Program-made: the position numbers and the translations under genes
The notes under the pieces: model-generated
What the model was told of the DNA's origin: nothing
Database searches by the model: none
Seen by the model: the letters and a program-made list of their open reading frames with translations, nothing else
Assembly (NCBI RefSeq): GCF_900172235.1
Contig: NZ_FWFQ01000006.1
Location: 87,581 to 151,580 of the forward strand
Source of the DNA: Pseudoruegeria aquimaris
GTDB taxonomy: Bacteria; Pseudomonadota; Alphaproteobacteria; Rhodobacterales; Rhodobacteraceae
Direction of reading: 5' to 3'
Length of the DNA stretch: 64,000 bases
Part shown: positions 2,904 through 56,651 of the stretch, in pieces
Layout of the letters: the number at the start of each line of letters is the position of its first letter
Numbering within the stretch: the stretch's first letter is position 1

Positions 2904-4457
2904 TCAGAGCATCCAGGCGATGGGCAGCCAGCTCATGAAGGTCACCAGGGCGCGGCTGAAGGCGCTGGTGGCCGGCTCGGTGGTATGGACCACCTCGTTG
3001 CCCTCCTCGGCCGTTTCCCGCCACGTCTTGCGCCCGTCTGGCGTGAGCGAGACGCGGTAGGCGTTGAGGGCGAGGTTTTCGTCGAAGGCCTCGGCCATGC
3101 CGCGGGCCAGCGCGGGGCTGTCGATCAGGAAACCCATCTCGGTGTTGAGGTTGGCGGAGCGGGGATCGAAGTTGAAGGAGCCGACGAAGGTTTCGTCGCG
3201 GTCCAGCACGAAGGTTTTCGCGTGCAGGCTGGTGGTGGAATAGCCCAGCAGGCCGAGCTGTCCGCCGAGGCGGGCCTGTTCGACGTCGGGCTTCAGCTCG
3301 TAGACCTCCACGCCCCCTTCCAGCAGCCTGTCGCGGTAGCGCACGTAGCCGCCGTGCACCGGCAGCACGTCGGTGGCGGCCTGGGAGTTCGTCAGGGTGC
3401 GCACGCGGATGCCTTCGGCGGCGAAGCCGGTGAGCAGATCGGTGAAGCCATCGCCCGGCACGAAATAGGCAGAAACCAGATCGACGCTTTTCGTGGGCCG
3501 GCCCAGGATGGAGAACAGCCGCGTGATCATCAGCTGATCCTCGCGCGCGGGCCCGAGCCCCTTGGCGGGATCGTCGCTGACGAGGCGGGTGGGCACCCAA
3601 TCCAGCAACAGCGAGCCTTCCAGCATGCGGGCGATGATGCGGGTGTTCTCGATCGCGGCGAGATAGGCCTGGGCCGCCGGATCCTCGCGCACCGCATCGG
3701 CGGAGGCTTCTATGGAGGAGGCCTCGGGATCGTCGGCCGGCAGGATGCGCGACACCGGATAGGCCGAGAGGCTGGCCCAGTAGCGGTCGAAATCCTCTTC
3801 CACCTCGCCGGCGGCATTGCCGACCACGAGCACGTCGAGATCGAAGTAGTTCACGTCTTCGGCGGTGGCGAAGTAGATGTCGCCCACGTTGCGGCCGCCG
3901 ACGATGGTGGCGATGCCGTCCACGGTGAAGGACTTGTTGTGCATCCGGCGGTTCAGGCGGCGGAAATCGAACATGTAGGAGAGCACGCGCGGGTTGCGCA
4001 GGATGAAGGGGTTGAACAGCCGCACCTCCGCGTTGGGGTGGCTGTCGAGCTCGGCCAGTTCGGGATCGAGATCGGGGGTGCCGTTGTCATCCACCAGCAG
4101 GCGCACGCGCACGCCGCGATCGGCCGCCGCCTTCAGCTCGTCCAGCAGCAGCAGGCCGGTGATGTCCTTCTGCCAGATGTAATACTGCGCATCGATGCTC
4201 TGCTGCGCGGCGCGGGCCAGCAGCACGCGCGAGGCGAAGGCCACCGCGCCGTTCTGCAGCGGGGTGACGCCGTTCCTGCCGGGGTTGGCGGCCATGTCGT
4301 CGGCCACGTGGCGCGCGATCGGGCTGTCGGGTGGCGCGGGCAGCGCGCGGCTTTCGCTGCGCCCCTCCTGCGAGGGCGGCGCGAAGACGAGCCGGGCCAC
4401 GAAGCCCGCCCCCCAGAGCACGACCACCGTCAGCAGCAACAGTTTCAGGAAACGCAT
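2904..4457 (-). CDS. phospholipase D superfamily protein, cardiolipin synthase C-like
   Basis: This membrane-anchored enzyme has two phospholipase D half-sites and 517 residues. An N-terminal transmembrane helix (MRFLKLLLLTVVVLWGAGF) leads to HxK motif one (MHNK...D, then GGRN) and HxK motif two (LHAKTF...D, then GSFN). The stretch QSIDAQYYIWQKDITG is typical of ClsC/YmdC, which makes cardiolipin from two phospholipids. ClsC is therefore the best analogue, but substrate is inferred. I chose the ATG at 4457 because GGAGGAGAAGG precedes it; a longer TTG start at 4475 would overlap that Shine-Dalgarno sequence. No ymdB-like partner is nearby. Confidence 0.87.
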   Translation of the reverse strand: MRFLKLLLLTVVVLWGAGFVARLVFAPPSQEGRSESRALPAPPDSPIARHVADDMAANPGRNGVTPLQNGAVAFASRVLLARAAQQSIDAQYYIWQKDITGLLLLDELKAAADRGVRVRLLVDDNGTPDLDPELAELDSHPNAEVRLFNPFILRNPRVLSYMFDFRRLNRRMHNKSFTVDGIATIVGGRNVGDIYFATAEDVNYFDLDVLVVGNAAGEVEEDFDRYWASLSAYPVSRILPADDPEASSIEASADAVREDPAAQAYLAAIENTRIIARMLEGSLLLDWVPTRLVSDDPAKGLGPAREDQLMITRLFSILGRPTKSVDLVSAYFVPGDGFTDLLTGFAAEGIRVRTLTNSQAATDVLPVHGGYVRYRDRLLEGGVEVYELKPDVEQARLGGQLGLLGYSTTSLHAKTFVLDRDETFVGSFNFDPRSANLNTEMGFLIDSPALARGMAEAFDENLALNAYRVSLTPDGRKTWRETAEEGNEVVHTTEPATSAFSRALVTFMSWLPIAWML

Positions 4458-4618: not shown

Positions 4619-5671
4619 ATGCAGAAACCCACCATCGTACTGGATGCCTATTGGCGGCAGGTTTCGGAGTTGTTCTCGGAGGCCGATTTCGCCCGGCTGC
4701 ATACCGCGTTCGACGTGGTCTGGGGCCAGGACGCCCCGATCCCGCAGGAGGTGCTCGACGGCGCCCTGCCGGATGCGGTGGCGCTGATCTCGGCGGATCC
4801 GCGGGTCAGCCGCGACACGCTGGAGGCGGCGCCGGGGCTCAAGGCCGTGGTGGAGGTTTCGGGCGCGTTTCCGGCCTCGATCGACTACGCGGCCTGTGCG
4901 AAACGCGGCGTTGAGGTGCTGAGCTGCTCGCCCGGGTTCCGGGAGTCGGTGGCGGAAATGGCGGTGGCGATGGCGCTGGCCGGGGCGCGCGGGCTGGTGA
5001 CTGAGCACGAGTTGTTCCGCAACGGGCGCGAAAGCTGGCTGGCCGATCACCCCGAGCGGGATTTCTCGCTCTTTGACTGCCCCGTCGGTTTCGTCGGATT
5101 CGGCGCCATCGCGCAGGAAACCCTGCGCCTTCTGCGCCCCTTCCGCCCCGTCGTGCGCGCCTACGACCCCTTCCTTGATGATGACGCCGCCGCCGCGAAG
5201 GGCGTGATCCTCACCAGCCTCGAAGAGGTGCTGAGCCAGAGCCGGTGCATCTTCGTGATGGCCGCGCCCACCGTCGAGAACAAGGGCATGATCGGCGCCC
5301 AGCAGCTTTCGAAAATGCCCAACGGCAGCCTGCTGGTGCTGGCCAGCCGCGCCCATCTCGTGGATTTCGACGCGCTGCTGCGCGACACCACCTTCGGGCG
5401 CATCCGCGCCGCGATCGACGTCTTCCCGCAGGAGCCCGTGGACAGGAAATCGCAGATGCGGTTCAACCCGAACCTGATCCTTTCGCCCCATCGGGCCGCG
5501 GCCGTGAAGGGCGGGCGGCACCTGATCGGCAAGATGATCGTGGACGATCTGCTGGAGATCACCGCCGGGCGCGCGCCGACGCAGCTTCTGCGCGCCGCCG
5601 ACCGGGACGTGGAGCTACTGGCCGGGGTGAGCGATGCCGCCCCAGTGGCCGAGATGGCGGCGAAGCGCTAG
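4619..5671 (+). CDS. D-isomer specific 2-hydroxyacid dehydrogenase family protein
   Basis: This is an NAD(P)-dependent oxidoreductase of 350 residues. The Rossmann motif GFGAIA lies near residues 157-162, in the family's usual position. The catalytic trio is visible: Arg in ASRAHLVD, Glu in DVFPQEP and His in LSPHRAAA. The ATG at 4619 follows AAGGAGAAGCGG. The frame is open for about 290 bases upstream, but with no better start. Substrate is unknown; members act on phosphoglycerate, glyoxylate, lactate and similar compounds. The gene is alone, and 26 bp separate it from the convergent FG-GAP gene. Confidence 0.85.
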   Translation: MQKPTIVLDAYWRQVSELFSEADFARLHTAFDVVWGQDAPIPQEVLDGALPDAVALISADPRVSRDTLEAAPGLKAVVEVSGAFPASIDYAACAKRGVEVLSCSPGFRESVAEMAVAMALAGARGLVTEHELFRNGRESWLADHPERDFSLFDCPVGFVGFGAIAQETLRLLRPFRPVVRAYDPFLDDDAAAAKGVILTSLEEVLSQSRCIFVMAAPTVENKGMIGAQQLSKMPNGSLLVLASRAHLVDFDALLRDTTFGRIRAAIDVFPQEPVDRKSQMRFNPNLILSPHRAAAVKGGRHLIGKMIVDDLLEITAGRAPTQLLRAADRDVELLAGVSDAAPVAEMAAKR

Positions 5672-5697: not shown

Positions 5698-6476
5698 TCA
5701 GCCCCCGGCGCAGCGCAGGGCGGCCTCGGTGGCCGCCGCGCCCTCGAAAGGCCCGATGTCCGTTTCCAGCAGTTCCCCTTTCGGCGTCAAACGAAGCGAC
5801 AGGAGCCGCTGCCAGTCGGCGCGGGGCACCACCATCTCGGGGGCTCCCGCGCAGCTGCGTATGCCGCCGGTGATGAAATCCTCTCCGATCCGGTGGTTGC
5901 TGATGCCCTGCATCTGCGCCACTTCCGTCAGCCCGCCGGCCTCATAGCGCCAGACGCGCAGGATGCGGGCAAGGTGCGGGCGGTCCACGTAGGCAATTTC
6001 AACCCTGCCGTCACCGTCCAGATCGGCGGCGCCGACGGGCGCCAGCCAGCGGTTGCGGGTGCCGATGTAGGGGGTGGCCGCTATCAGCCCCTCGGGGCCG
6101 TGGACGGCAAGGCGCGCGCCGCGTCGCGCGTCGGATTCCACCACGATCACCTCGGGGGCGCCGTCACCGTCCAGGTCGGCGAGCCGGGGCGCGGTATCCT
6201 CGAACACCCGGCTTTCGGGCAGCACGATGCGGCGGCTGCGCCCGTCGGAGAGCGTCAGCACCAGCGTGCCGTGCTCGATCGCGTCGCCGAGCACGCCGTG
6301 GGCGTAGCGGGTGGTGGGATCGTCGTAGCGGGCGGCGGTGATCGCCGCGCCCGTCTGCGCCAAGGCGCCCCCGGCAGCGAGGCCGCCGGCCAGCAGCGCA
6401 AGGCGCGTGGCCAGAACACTGACCCACGCGTGGATCGGCGCGCGGGCCTGCGAAAACCTCGGCCCGCGCCCGCGCA

Positions 6477-6477
<1 letters not shown>
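5698..6477 (-). CDS. secreted FG-GAP/VCBS repeat protein
   Basis: A 259-residue protein with a hydrophobic N-terminal segment that reads as a signal peptide (RLALLAGGLAAGGALA, then Q). The mature part carries two clear calcium-type beta-propeller loops, ADLDGDGAPEV and ADLDGDGRVEI, so the fold is probably a small FG-GAP propeller in the periplasm or at the cell surface. Its ATG (6477) overlaps the stop codon of the upstream ferredoxin gene as TGATG, implying translational coupling. No enzymatic motif was seen and the function is unknown. The link to a cytoplasmic ferredoxin is unexplained and may be only positional. Confidence 0.75.
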
Positions 6478-6821
<344 letters not shown>

Positions 6822-6968
6822 TCAGATCTGTGCTTGCGGGCTCGCCGCCCCGCCCGCCGGCGCACACGCCGGCCCGGTGGAGCCAGAGCCTGACTTAGCG
6901 GCGCCATGCCTCCCGCGCCAGTCTCCATCGATCATTTTTTCACGCGGGGCTTGCAGCGGCGCATCAAT

Positions 6969-6983
6969 GTTCTATTTTTGTTC
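6969..6983 (+). promoter_or_regulatory. LexA (SOS) box, GTTC-N7-GTTC
   Basis: A perfect direct repeat GTTC-TATTTTT-GTTC, the consensus of the alphaproteobacterial LexA operator, lies two bases before the ATG of the OB-fold gene. The pattern is short, so about one copy is expected by chance in this window (my estimate from base composition). Its position just before a DnaE2-derived ORF is what makes it convincing. Confidence 0.7.
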
Positions 6984-6985
6984 CC

Positions 6986-7399
6986 ATGACGGACGCCCCG
7001 CCCCCCTCTTCCTCTTTCCCGGCCGCCGGCGGGTTTCACGGCCGGCCGGACTGGCCGCGCCCCCCCGCCTGCCTGCCCCATGCCCGGCTCGACGAGCCGC
7101 CCAGCGGCGCGCGCGTCTGCGTGGCGGGGCTGGTGCTGGTGCGCCAGCGGCCGGGCACGGCGAAGGGGGTGATCTTCCTGACGCTGGAGGACGAGACGGG
7201 GGTGAGCAACATCGTCGTCTGGCAGAAGGTCTACGAGCGGTTCCGCCGGGCGGTGATCTCGGGGCGGCTGCTGCGCGTCACCGGCCGCATCCAGCGCGAA
7301 AGCGGCGTGGTCCACGTGGTCGCCGAACATGTGGAGGACATCTCCCCCCTGCTCGACAGGCTCACCGCCCCGGCGGAGCCGCAGGGCGGGGGCGCCTAG
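6986..7399 (+). CDS. orphan OB-fold protein resembling the C-terminal domain of error-prone polymerase DnaE2
   Basis: A 137-residue protein. Residues ~40-115 form an OB-fold nucleic acid-binding domain whose wording ([17 protein letters not shown], then [22 protein letters not shown] and [11 protein letters not shown]) is that of the C-terminal tRNA_anti domain of DnaE2/ImuC. The polymerase core, HhH region and the usual basic C-terminal tail are absent, and no imuA or imuB lies nearby. The ATG at 6986 has no Shine-Dalgarno sequence and follows a LexA box by two bases, so the message may be leaderless. The frame is open upstream through the box, with no better start. It could be a deletion remnant of an imuAB-dnaE2 operon or a domesticated SOS-induced single-strand-binding protein. 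Confidence 0.72.
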
Positions 7400-7424
7400 C
7401 CCTTCCGCCCCCGCCGCGCGCACG

Positions 7425-8336
7425 TCAGATCTTCGTGGCGTTGGCCGGTGGCGTCACCGCGCGCCGCTTCAGCATCGCCTCGCGCCAGGTGATGAAGCTC
7501 ACCGCCCCCAGGATGATGGCCCCGCCCAGCACCACCCAGCCGTCCACCGGCTCGGCGAAGACCAGAGCGCCCAGCGCCGTGGCCCAGATCAGCTGCAGGA
7601 AGGTCACCGGCTGGGTGACGGTGAGCGGCGCGGCCTGGAAGGCCAGCGTCATCGTGTAGTGGCCGGCGGTGGCGAAACAGGCCACGAGAAAGAGCCAGAA
7701 CAGCTCGCTGCCCGAGGGCGGCACCCAGACGGCGAAGGCGAAGGGCGCAAGGCCGATGGTGACGGTGACCGAGAGCATCCCGACGACGACGGCCGGGCTC
7801 ACCTGCCCGGAGACGCGCTTGGCGATCAGGTAGGAGCCGGCGAAGGCCAGTGCCGTGCCGATCATCGCCAGGTGTCCCGCGTTCACCTCCCGCAGCCCCG
7901 GGCGCAGGATCACCAGCGCCCCCAGCAGCGCCGCCAGCACCGCGAGGATGCGGCGCAGGGCGAGGGTTTCCCCAAGGAAGAGCGCCGCGCCGAGAGTGAC
8001 GTAGACCGGCGAGAGGTAGTTCATCGCGGTGACTTCGGCGATCGGGATGCGCGTCATCGCGTAGAACCAGAGGATCACGCCCAGCGTGTGCACCGCCCCG
8101 CGCGCGGCGAAGAGCGTGGCCAGGGGGCGGTCCATGCGCGTGCGCAGCATCGGGCCCAGCATCGGCAGCAGGAAAACGAGCCCCAGCACGTAGCGCAGGA
8201 AGGCCGATTGCGCCGCCGGAAGCCCGGAGCCCACGTGTTTGACGATGGCCGTCACGGCGACGAAATTCAGGCCGGTCACGATCATCCAGAAAATGCCGGC
8301 GGCGGGGGTGGCCTTCGGGCTTTGAGTGGGCTGCAT
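7425..8336 (-). CDS. EamA/DMT family transporter
   Basis: An inner-membrane permease of 303 residues with about ten hydrophobic helices arranged as two EamA repeats, the second starting near residue 160 (HLAMIGTALAFAGSYLIAKR). Drug/metabolite transporters of this shape export amino acids, nucleosides or other small metabolites; the substrate is unknown. It is followed downstream by the convergent OB-fold gene and lies 37 bp downstream of argO on the same strand, so it may share the argO transcript and the export theme. Confidence 0.85.
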   Translation of the reverse strand: MQPTQSPKATPAAGIFWMIVTGLNFVAVTAIVKHVGSGLPAAQSAFLRYVLGLVFLLPMLGPMLRTRMDRPLATLFAARGAVHTLGVILWFYAMTRIPIAEVTAMNYLSPVYVTLGAALFLGETLALRRILAVLAALLGALVILRPGLREVNAGHLAMIGTALAFAGSYLIAKRVSGQVSPAVVVGMLSVTVTIGLAPFAFAVWVPPSGSELFWLFLVACFATAGHYTMTLAFQAAPLTVTQPVTFLQLIWATALGALVFAEPVDGWVVLGGAIILGAVSFITWREAMLKRRAVTPPANATKI

Positions 8337-8373: not shown

Positions 8374-8973
8374 TCAATTGATGATGAGCGAGGCCGCGAT
8401 CGCCCACATGGTCGCCCCGACCACCACGTCCAGCACCCGCCAGGCCGCCGGCCGCGCGAAGAACCCGCGCAGCAGCCGGGCGCCGAAGCCGAGGCCGAAG
8501 AAGAAGGTGAAGGAGGCCGAGGCCGCCCCCAGCCCGAAGGCCAGCCGCGCGCCTTCATACTGGGTGGAGATCGAGCCCAGCAGCACCACCGTATCGAGGT
8601 AGACATGGGGGTTGAGCCAGGTCAGCGCGAGGCAGGTTGTGAGCGCGGCGGCAAGGCTCTGGCGCGGCTGATCGCCCGCCGAAAGCGCCGCCCCGCCCCG
8701 GTAGGCGGCCCGGAAGGCCAGCGCACCGTAGCCCAGCAGGAAGAGCGCCCCGCCCCAGCGGAAGGCCGGGATCAGCCAGGGCGCGGCCCCGGCGATGGCG
8801 CCGAAGCCGCTCACCCCGAGCGCGATCAGCACCGCGTCCGACAGCGCGCAGGTCAGCACCACCGGCAGCACGTGTTCGTTGCGCAGCCCCTGCCGCAGCA
8901 CGAAGGCGTTCTGCGCACCGATGGCCAGGATCAGGCTGAAGCCGAGGGCGAAGCCGGCGAAATAGGCGCTCAT
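8374..8973 (-). CDS. argO: LysE/ArgO family amino acid exporter
   Basis: A 199-residue exporter with about six membrane helices. The N-terminal signature GFSLILAIGAQNAFVLRQGL is diagnostic for LysE/ArgO, which exports arginine or lysine (and toxic analogues) from the cytoplasm. It diverges from an ArgP/LysG-type LysR regulator across 110 bp, the classical arrangement in which the regulator switches the exporter on when basic amino acids accumulate. Confidence 0.92.
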   Translation of the reverse strand: MSAYFAGFALGFSLILAIGAQNAFVLRQGLRNEHVLPVVLTCALSDAVLIALGVSGFGAIAGAAPWLIPAFRWGGALFLLGYGALAFRAAYRGGAALSAGDQPRQSLAAALTTCLALTWLNPHVYLDTVVLLGSISTQYEGARLAFGLGAASASFTFFFGLGFGARLLRGFFARPAAWRVLDVVVGATMWAIAASLIIN

Positions 8974-53979: not shown

Positions 53980-54098
53980 GGCGGGGCAGATAGAACGCCG
54001 CGCGCGGCCGGAAAGCCCATCGCACGCCCCCTGCCACCGCCTTGCACCCGCCCGCCAAACCGCTACACCTTACCGCCAACAGCATATGGAGAGCCGCG

Positions 54099-56651
54099 AT
54101 GAAAGATGCCGCGCCGCAAAAGATCTACCTGTCGGATTACACCCCCTTCGGCTACCGCGTGGAGGAGGTGCATCTGACCTTCCGCCTCGCGCCAGAGGCC
54201 ACGCGGGTGCTGTCCCGCATCCGCTTCGCCCCCAACCCCGAGGCCACCGACCGCCGGTTCTTCCTGCACGGCGAGCAGCTGAAGCTGCTGAGCGCGCGGA
54301 TCGACGGCGCCCCGATCACCCCCCGCTTCGTGGACGGCGGGCTGGAGGCCGACGTGCCCGACGGCCCCTTCCTCTGGGAAGCGGAAGTGGAGATCGCCCC
54401 GGCGAAGAACACCGCGCTCGAAGGGCTCTACATGTCGGGCGGGATGTATTGCACCCAATGCGAGGCCGAAGGCTTCCGCAAGATCACCTATTACCCCGAC
54501 CGCCCCGACGTGATGGCCACCTTCACCGTGCGCATCGAAAGCGACATGCCGGTGCTGCTCTCCAACGGCAACCCGCTGGGCAAGGGGGCGGGCTGGGCCG
54601 AATGGCACGATCCCTGGCCCAAGCCCTCCTACCTCTTCGCGCTGGTGGCCGGGGATCTGGTCAACCACGCCGACCGCTTCACCACGATGGAAGGGCGCGA
54701 CGTGGAACTCAACATCTGGGTGCGGCCGGGCGACGAGGGCAAATGCGCCTTCGGGATGGACGCGCTGAAACGCTCCATGAAGTGGGATGAAGAGGTCTAC
54801 GGCCGCGCCTACGACCTGGACATTTTCAACATCGTGGCCGTGGACGATTTCAACATGGGCGCGATGGAGAACAAGGGGTTGAACATTTTCAACTCTTCCT
54901 GCGTTCTCGCCAGCCCGGAAACCTCCACCGACGCCAACTTCGAGCGCATCGAGGCGATCATCGCCCACGAGTATTTCCACAACTGGACGGGCAACCGCAT
55001 CACCTGCCGCGACTGGTTCCAGCTCTGCCTGAAGGAAGGGCTCACCGTCTTCCGGGATCAGCAGTTCACCGGCGATCAGCGCAGCCATGCGGTGAAGCGC
55101 ATCGACGACGTGCTCACCCTGCGCGGCCGCCAGTTCCGCGAGGACAACGGCCCGCTCGCCCACCCGGTGCGCCCGGAAAGCTTCGTGGAGATCAACAACT
55201 TCTACACCGCCACCGTCTACGAGAAGGGCGCCGAGCTGATCGGGATGCTGAAGACGCTCGTGGGCGATGCCGCCTACAAGGAGGCGCTGGATCTCTATTT
55301 CCGCCGCCACGACGGCCAGGCGGCCACGATCGAGGATTGGCTGAAGGTCTTCGAGGATGTCACCGGGCGCGATCTTTCGCAGTTCAAACTCTGGTACAGC
55401 CAGGCCGGCACGCCCCGCCTGAAGGTGGAAGAGGCATTCGAGAACGGCACTTACACCCTGACGTTCACGCAAAGCACGCCCCCCACGCCGGGCCAGCCCG
55501 TGAAGGATCCGAAGGTCATCCCGATCCTCGTCGGGCTGCTTGACGACACCGGTGCGGAGATCCAGCCCACGACGTTGCTGGAGATGACGCAGGAAAGGCA
55601 ATCCTTCTGCTTCGAGGGGCTCTCCGCGCGCCCGATCCCTTCGATCCTGCGCAATTTCTCGGCCCCCGTGATCCTGCAGCGCGAAAGCAGCAACGCCGAG
55701 CGTGCCTTCCTGCTGGCCCATGACACCGATCCGTTCAACAAGTGGGAGGCCGGGCGCGCGCTGGCCAAGGACGTGCTGACCCGCATGATCTGCGACGGCG
55801 CCCCGGCCGATCCGGCCTACCTCGATGCCCTGCAGCGCGTGGCCCGTGACGACAGCCTCGATCCGGCCTTCCGGGCACTGGCCCTGCGCCAGCCGAGCGA
55901 GGAGGACATCGCCCAGACCCTGTTCGACGCCGGCCGCACCCCGGATCCGGCGCGAATCCACGATGCCGCCGAAACACTGGCGCAGGCACGCGCCGAGGCT
56001 CTCCAGGATCTGCTGCCGCGCCTCTACGCCGAGATGCACGTGCCCGGCCCCTACAGCCCCGACGCCAAGGCCGCCGGCAAGCGCGCGCTTCAGAACACGG
56101 TGCTCGGGCTGCTGTCGCGGCTGGATTCCGGTGAGGCCGCGCGCCGGCAGTATGCCGCCGCCGACAACATGACGATGCAGCTCGGCGCGCTGGCGAGCCT
56201 GCTCACCATCGAGCGCGGCCGCGCCGAAACCGCCGCCTTCTACGACCAGTGGAAGGCCGACCGCCTCGTGATGGACAAATGGTTCGGGCTCCAGGTGGCC
56301 TGCGCCGCGCCGGAAGCGGCGGCCGAAACCGCCCGCGCCCTGACCGAACACGCCGATTTCGACTGGAAGAACCCCAACCGCTTCCGCGCCGTCTTCGGCA
56401 GCCTCGCCACAAACCCGGCCGGCTTCCATCATGAAAGCGGCGCCGGCTACGCGCTGCTCGCCGACTGGCTGATCCGGCTCGATCCGGTCAACCCGCAGAC
56501 CACTGCGCGCATGTGCTCGGCCTTCGAGACATGGCGCCGCTACGATGCCGACAGGCAGGGGCTGATCCGCGCCCAGCTCGAACGGATCCTGAACCAGCCC
56601 GGCCTCAGCCGGGACACCACGGAAATGATCACGCGCATCCTGGAGGGATAG
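54099..56651 (+). CDS. pepN: aminopeptidase N (M1 family)
   Basis: An 850-residue zinc aminopeptidase. The exopeptidase signature GAMEN precedes the zinc site HEYFHNW, with His290, Glu291, His294 and the third ligand Glu313 in QLCLKEGL. Size and C-terminal helical repeats fit the E. coli PepN type. It degrades peptides in the cytoplasm. The ATG at 54099 was chosen since the protein then begins like homologues and GGAGAG lies ten bases upstream. An SDR gene follows after 4 bp. Confidence 0.95.
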   Translation: MKDAAPQKIYLSDYTPFGYRVEEVHLTFRLAPEATRVLSRIRFAPNPEATDRRFFLHGEQLKLLSARIDGAPITPRFVDGGLEADVPDGPFLWEAEVEIAPAKNTALEGLYMSGGMYCTQCEAEGFRKITYYPDRPDVMATFTVRIESDMPVLLSNGNPLGKGAGWAEWHDPWPKPSYLFALVAGDLVNHADRFTTMEGRDVELNIWVRPGDEGKCAFGMDALKRSMKWDEEVYGRAYDLDIFNIVAVDDFNMGAMENKGLNIFNSSCVLASPETSTDANFERIEAIIAHEYFHNWTGNRITCRDWFQLCLKEGLTVFRDQQFTGDQRSHAVKRIDDVLTLRGRQFREDNGPLAHPVRPESFVEINNFYTATVYEKGAELIGMLKTLVGDAAYKEALDLYFRRHDGQAATIEDWLKVFEDVTGRDLSQFKLWYSQAGTPRLKVEEAFENGTYTLTFTQSTPPTPGQPVKDPKVIPILVGLLDDTGAEIQPTTLLEMTQERQSFCFEGLSARPIPSILRNFSAPVILQRESSNAERAFLLAHDTDPFNKWEAGRALAKDVLTRMICDGAPADPAYLDALQRVARDDSLDPAFRALALRQPSEEDIAQTLFDAGRTPDPARIHDAAETLAQARAEALQDLLPRLYAEMHVPGPYSPDAKAAGKRALQNTVLGLLSRLDSGEAARRQYAAADNMTMQLGALASLLTIERGRAETAAFYDQWKADRLVMDKWFGLQVACAAPEAAAETARALTEHADFDWKNPNRFRAVFGSLATNPAGFHHESGAGYALLADWLIRLDPVNPQTTARMCSAFETWRRYDADRQGLIRAQLERILNQPGLSRDTTEMITRILEG

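Follow-up and report, generated by a model that had tools for sequence, protein, structure and literature searches.

A DnaE2 OB domain encoded apart from the polymerase body, behind a predicted LexA operator, in Rhodobacteraceae

DnaE2 is the driver of mutagenesis after DNA damage in many bacteria. In DnaE polymerases generally, the OB domain is the template-side nucleic-acid-binding domain. A C-family polymerase encoded in two genes is known from cyanobacteria, where the halves of the replicative DnaE are rejoined by a split intein. DnaE2 (ImuC, profile family NF004225) has been described as one polypeptide, and its gene as part of a LexA-regulated imuA-imuB-dnaE2 cassette, which may be "contiguous or split" according to the relevant passages of PMC3919608, where "split" refers to whole genes. 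Passages of the same paper, by Timinskas et al. (PMC3919608), report several DnaE2 sequences without an OB domain; the organisms are not named there and the domain is not sought elsewhere. In searches of openly licensed PMC papers, we found no earlier report of a stand-alone DnaE2 OB; the main text of a 2026 polymerase survey does not use the terms "OB domain" or "OB-fold", and OB terms looked for in PMC10421592 were not found.

The locus analysed here differs from these descriptions in that the division extends into the polymerase itself: its OB domain is found as a separate SOS-type gene, and DnaE2 as two genes at distant loci. We put at roughly 75% the probability that the ORF under study is the OB domain of the genome's own DnaE2, carried on its own behind a predicted LexA operator and likely serving the DnaE2 mutasome as a trans-acting subunit. 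The parts and their LexA-type boxes are those of the imuA-imuB-dnaE2 cassette but, in contrast to the contiguous cassette, imuA, imuB, dnaE2 and the OB gene lie apart in most of the split genomes examined here. The arrangement resembles the cyanobacterial DnaE in being a two-gene C-family polymerase; here, however, no intein match was seen in the ORF in Pfam and NF004225 profile searches, and the pieces would be separate subunits. The features of the locus are collected in Table 1, in coordinates of the window, i.e. the whole 64-kb stretch of DNA analysed (G000:C29:87581-151580).

Table 1. Coordinates of the stand-alone OB gene, its predicted control elements and its conserved neighbour
Feature	Position	Strand	Basis
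Divergent 2Fe-2S ferredoxin gene, conserved neighbour	6477..6800	-	PF00111
-35-like hexamer TTGCAG, predicted	6951..6956	+	16 bases ahead of the -10-like hexamer; aligned loci
LexA-type operator GTTC-TATTTTT-GTTC, predicted	6969..6983	+	Exact match; box in 101/105 stand-alone loci
-10-like hexamer TATTTT within the operator, predicted	6973..6978	+	Spacer consensus; ends 7 bases ahead of ATG
DnaE2-OB ORF (137 aa; intact, 137 codons, ATG at 6986, stop at 7399), detached C-terminal OB domain of DnaE2	6986..7399	+	NF004225, PF01336, purifying selection
WPRPP motif directly ahead of the OB fold	7052..7066	+	WPxPP conservation among stand-alone proteins
OB-fold core (residues 44-119)	7115..7342	+	PF01336; AlphaFold2 five-stranded barrel, mean pLDDT 79

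A preliminary description of the window had read the ORF as the OB-fold end of DnaE2, and profile searches agree with it. Against NF004225 (error-prone DNA polymerase), the ORF matches only positions 942-1041 of 1047, the last 100 positions of the family alignment (E 2.5e-33). It scores 47.8 bits with Pfam PF01336 (OB-fold), over the cut-off of 27, and its AlphaFold2 model shows the OB barrel. The PHP, palm/finger and HhH parts of the polymerase core were not found in it by Pfam and NF004225 searches; on this evidence, the ORF alone is a piece of DnaE2 and not a DnaE2. A fold search with the ORF model returned many generic OB folds as the closest, with no DnaE-specific signal among the top matches, and a sequence profile of the OB reached E. 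coli Pol III alpha in the PDB only at E 0.47. A homologous-protein search with the ORF yielded 6670 proteins of similar size, some of them possibly fragments, and relatives are annotated as "OB-fold nucleic acid binding domain-containing protein", "DNA polymerase III alpha subunit" or "single-strand DNA-binding protein". An Rfam scan of window positions 6400-7600 gave no match.

The intact frame and fold had been taken to favour retention of the ORF, and its absence or a broken frame in close relatives to speak against it. The ORF is intact in both other same-genus genomes examined. Comparison with the same-genus L246 gives a dN of 0.030 for a dS of 0.564, that with L247 0.139 for 0.979, and dN/dS within the genus lies near 0.05 to 0.14. 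pN was smaller than pS in 5050 of 5050 pairs among 101 OB sequences, a set that, like the OB tree, lacks 6 of the original 107 because the motif applied did not pick them up (L133, L141, L146, L152, L154 and L155). These ratios indicate that the OB ORF is under purifying selection.

The perfect GTTC-N7-GTTC noted earlier two bases ahead of the start codon is indeed there: the box GTTCTATTTTTGTTC is followed by CC and then by ATG. As judged by statistics alone, this single box is not significant (1.25 are expected in a shuffled 64-kb window and 2 were found), and conservation across orthologues was therefore used instead. The other exact GTTC-N7-GTTC of the window (56580-56594) lies within a long aminopeptidase-like frame (54042-56651) and is probably due to chance. 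We fetched 110 OB loci and dropped 5 as contig-broken fused DnaE2 (L149, L151, L153, L156, L157), leaving 105. An exact box is found up to 400 nt upstream of the OB core at 101 of these stand-alone loci, which answers the proposed search of Rhodobacteraceae for the same boxed short ORF, against a background of 7 boxes per 232,445 bases elsewhere in the same loci, or 0.012 per 400 bp. By these counts, conservation of the box upstream of stand-alone OBs is significant, and in 81 of the 101 box-bearing loci the start codon follows 1-3 nt past the box end. Among the four loci without an exact box in this range, G014 has one with a single mismatch and G083 an exact one farther upstream, ahead of a long N-terminal extension; upstream of the OB at L085 and L109 no box was found. 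A second set, made up of the 80 best matches with names in GTDB genomes, partly overlaps the main one and includes one fused DnaE2 (Albimonas); in it, 77 have the box and 78 the ferredoxin neighbour.

Alignment of 81 loci brings out further conserved positions around the box. T stands at -18 of the box in 94% and G at -16 in 83%, a CTTGC/TGGAC element holds a constant position at -18/-19, and TTG, TGGAC or TGAC begins at -20 to -16 in 77 of the 81; the spacer consensus of the box is TATnTTT. A generic sigma-70 consensus scan of window positions 6780-7480 gave no promoter at its threshold. From the alignment, we infer a promoter of the -35/-10 type whose -10 element lies within the operator and whose transcript begins at the ATG. 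Since the operator would cover the -10 element and abuts the ATG, a tightly LexA-gated leaderless mRNA is predicted. LexA-type boxes, the sequence mark of the regulon, are present at the promoters of the SOS-type parts, and LexA would be expected to bind the one in front of the OB gene.

The preliminary description stated that the polymerase body, imuA and imuB are absent. This is true of the window and untrue of the genome (99.98% complete, 60 contigs). Contig C14 carries imuB, recognised by PF00817, and a dnaE2 body, and contig C37 carries an ImuA-like frame (E 3.6e-17, an assignment based on a four-sequence profile) with the exact box GAACATAAAGTGAAC upstream. On C14, in the coordinates of L238, the LexA-type box GAACATAACAGGAAC at 3826-3840 is followed by the imuB ATG at 3859 and by dnaE2 from a GTG at 5652 to a stop at 8570, with a DCC1-like oxidoreductase downstream. 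Thus, the full imuAB-dnaE2 set that it was proposed to look for elsewhere is present as regards its three genes, the imuA-like one assigned by profile; it is not contiguous, imuB and dnaE2 being adjacent and the imuA-like gene on another contig, and its dnaE2 is OB-less.

This DnaE2 is the only one of the genome. With 972 aa and 1229 bits against an NF004225 cut-off of 939, it is a DnaE2 by score, and it contains the NTPase/palm, finger and HhH domains as well as the catalytic aspartate motifs PDIDVD and KVDIL. It matches the profile only at 7-938/942 of 1047 and so ends where the match of the window ORF begins (942). PF01336 is absent from the body, while the same scan places it at 989-1060 of the fused G237 DnaE2. 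The C-terminus of the body (...VEDYVAMRLTLRAHPLALLRHILTPEAAPS) comes just after a conserved ...RAHPxALLRxxLTP segment, at the point where fused relatives continue via a short linker into the OB. The ORF had been called an orphan, as if beside a complete DnaE2. Instead, the only DnaE2 of its own genome lacks exactly the OB domain, and the most fitting interpretation of the ORF is therefore that it supplies the other half of a polymerase divided between two genes.

To survey the family, 248 genomes were searched with the window ORF, with 80 rechecked, and 240 with NF004225 at E 1e-210, DnaE2 being classed by profile end point; eight low-completeness genomes (G033, G068, G096, G122, G147, G166, G196, G212) were left out of this DnaE2 table. 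The 240 genomes comprise 102 with an OB-less DnaE2, 99 with full-length DnaE2 only (in G233 the match runs across a stop), 34 in which none was found and 5 with contig-edge fragments. A stand-alone OB is present in 98 of the 102 genomes with OB-less DnaE2 (the own genome and 97 of 239 relatives), in 1 of the 99 with full-length DnaE2 only (G237; a third OB match, in G002, could make this 2), and in 3 of the 34 without DnaE2 found (G051, G061, G118). The Fisher p for this co-occurrence is 2.5e-51; it ignores kinship and only describes the table, and the 98:4 versus 1:98 distribution reflects shared ancestry, with probably few events. In four genomes with OB-less DnaE2, all drafts of about 100 to 490 contigs (G044, G064, G162, G180), no OB was found even by profile. 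G142, in which a contig boundary truncates the N-terminus, may be another such case.

Among stand-alone proteins, 92 of 104 have WPxPP ahead of the OB, versus 0 of 16 fused DnaE2 linkers. PDIDxD and KVD[IV]Lx-LG are kept in 29 of 29 split bodies each, no OB relic was found downstream of any of the 29, and the C-terminal HPR tail is kept in only 4. Together, gene distribution and domain boundaries show, at the sequence level, the splitting of DnaE2 and the co-inheritance of its halves. Beyond the LTP segment, the C-termini of split bodies vary (for example L036, L042, L054, L061 and L062), and an end resembling R-[TD]-x-[LIMW]-W-[DG] recurs in several of them. In a class-wide survey of 289 genomes, 129 had a match at E 1e-15, and at most 14 candidates per genome were scored. 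Among these candidates the two top matches, and the sole clear stand-alone ones, were G000 and G210, both of Rhodobacteraceae; the others included short frames in G293, G319, G431, G476 and G493 and medium ones in G308, G407, G443 and G347.

Some genomes depart from the common pattern. G035 has a complete split set on G035:C1 (3.79 Mb) and a fused imu cassette on G035:C4 (126 kb); an imuA-imuB-dnaE2 cassette on a 126-kb plasmid is described for Dinoroseobacter shibae in a passage of PMC9426580. In G237, a boxed stand-alone OB without WPxPP (G237:C33:517865-518194) is retained, although no DnaE2 or imuB was found there other than those of a distant fused type (C26). G051, in about 7 contigs, keeps OB (G051:C4), imuB and an imuA-like gene, each with a LexA-type box, and no DnaE2 was found in it at E 1e-210. 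The 2.1- and 2.5-Mb genomes G172 and G090 (L154, L155) have diverged boxed stand-alone OBs without WPxPP.

The OB gene has a conserved neighbourhood and its partner genes are mostly dispersed. The ferredoxin gene lies upstream and divergent at 101 of the 105 stand-alone loci; it presumably does not belong to the enzyme, and its family-wide presence argues for one ancestral OB locus. When up to about 1.5 kb upstream of the bodies was inspected, imuB was found there for 2 of 29 split ones (the own genome and G057) versus 13 of 16 fused ones, four flanks being short or absent. Searches of 80 genomes found imuB in every one and an ImuA-like gene in 78; all 50 of the split-type genomes among them (G051 included) gave both. 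On G045:C1, for example, body, imuB, imuA-like gene and OB are at about 0.03, 0.51, 2.37 and 2.92 Mb. Exact LexA-type boxes stand upstream of imuB in 29 of 30 and of the imuA-like gene in 19 of 20 cases in split genomes. Upstream of 29 split dnaE2 bodies, 5 boxes are exact and 23 have one mismatch, mostly as GAAC-N7-GAAT; the sole body without a box is that of the own genome, located behind imuB.

A working order for a polymerase so divided can be proposed. DNA damage would inactivate LexA and thereby free the imuA-like, imuB, dnaE2-body and OB genes at their different loci. ImuB would then bring the body to the clamp through contacts with PHP and (HhH)2, which in the AlphaFold models presented in part of PMC12926913 are the domains of DnaE2, and not the OB, that contact ImuB. 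Both are kept in the body, which could therefore still be recruited. The OB would dock on the body, perhaps by its WPRPP segment, and hold the single-stranded template, so that DnaE2 might copy past lesions. In the fused DnaE2 of Albimonas, WPRPP stands next to the body, which suggests that an old body contact was kept after the split. Return of the OB in trans is the simplest account, and with it physical association of OB and body and an effect on lesion bypass would be expected. Several findings count against a subunit: G051 and G237 keep an OB without a detected cognate body (that of G237 having also lost WPxPP), the four drafts named above have an OB-less DnaE2 with no OB found, the co-occurrence table reflects shared ancestry, the closest fold matches of the OB are generic, and most split dnaE2 bodies have a box that deviates from the consensus at a single base.

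We also consider, tentatively and as less probable than not by some way, a mutasome built on demand, in which the OB is detachable, has its own LexA-gated leaderless promoter, and by its supply relative to the body switches the enzyme between a low-activity and a lesion-copying, mutagenic state. If so, the SOS response would gain a separate dial for mutagenesis. In any case, the domain separation is a natural one in a large clade, in which the OB could be deleted, titrated or swapped with the polymerase gene intact, and surveys that count DnaE2 domains would score these split enzymes as having lost the OB.

The preliminary description had offered a stand-alone binder of single-stranded DNA or a competitor of DnaE2. 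That the OB is retained as a separate gene stands; both proposed roles are weakened, the own DnaE2 being without an OB. An independent SOS-induced single-stranded-DNA-binding protein, for which DnaE2 is no longer needed, is unlikely. It would fit the OBs without a detected cognate body in G051 and G237, and the last of the annotation names above, given by some annotators. The ORF also shares the OB-fold and small size of SSB and other stand-alone OB proteins, with a weak similarity to SSB (PF00436) of 16.7 bits, which however does not reach the Pfam cut-off of 26, and its sequence is DnaE2-specific. Moreover, the OB is almost confined to genomes with OB-less DnaE2 (98/102 versus 1/99), whose bodies lack just this domain and carry no replacement. 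More doubtful still is a regulatory role, in which the OB would vie for DNA or partners with a polymerase that has its own OB (fused DnaE2 or DnaE1): a stand-alone OB does occur beside full-length DnaE2 in G035 and G237, but most carriers have no fused DnaE2 to compete with, a full-length DnaE2 match being absent from 97 of the 98 genomes that combine OB and split body.

Both remaining alternatives were rejected. According to the first, also raised in the preliminary description, a deletion fused the imu operator to the tail of dnaE2 and the ORF is being lost; the ORF does correspond to only part of a larger gene family and has the operator directly in front, yet the 105 orthologous loci in one conserved neighbourhood, the low dN/dS and the matching gap in the body contradict this, and we regard it as very improbable. 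The second is an artefact of assembly or annotation, one dnaE2 broken across contigs or by a frameshift. A few cases were of this kind and were removed (G009, G021, G078, G155, G178); in G009, an apparent exception, a contig cut falls within a fused dnaE2, the body ending 16 bases from the contig end and the OB starting at base 9. As a general explanation an artefact is hardly credible: same-genus relatives show the same arrangement, and the halves lie megabases apart on single contigs of finished size, as in G045:C1, where the body occupies 25-28 kb of 3.29 Mb and the OB lies at 2.92 Mb.

As to the history of the split polymerase, a tree separates 29 split bodies from 16 fused ones by a branch with 100/100 support. 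In the OB tree (85 columns), stand-alone and fused forms are not resolved as one split, and 2 changes are needed. The fused DnaE2 of Albimonas sp. CAU 1670 (L225) has an OB 74% identical to the window ORF and a C-terminal SRDFH tail, and holds a split-body ending beside the WPRPP segment of the OB in one polypeptide; from its sequence, it is a Rosetta-stone fusion of both halves. A tree of 13 split and 16 fused rows that also included it and the G083 body put the two basally in the split group (100/99); the position of Albimonas just inside G083 is weakly supported (86/76). Because this placement is weak, one split followed by re-fusion and two splits are both possible, and L225 may be a pre-split form or a re-fusion. 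The stand-alone OB on G083:C42 (L368/L152) has a roughly 210-aa repetitive N-terminal extension, no WPxPP and no ferredoxin neighbour, and its tail HPRDQSKLLF resembles that of fused DnaE2; it is possibly an independent or intermediate split.
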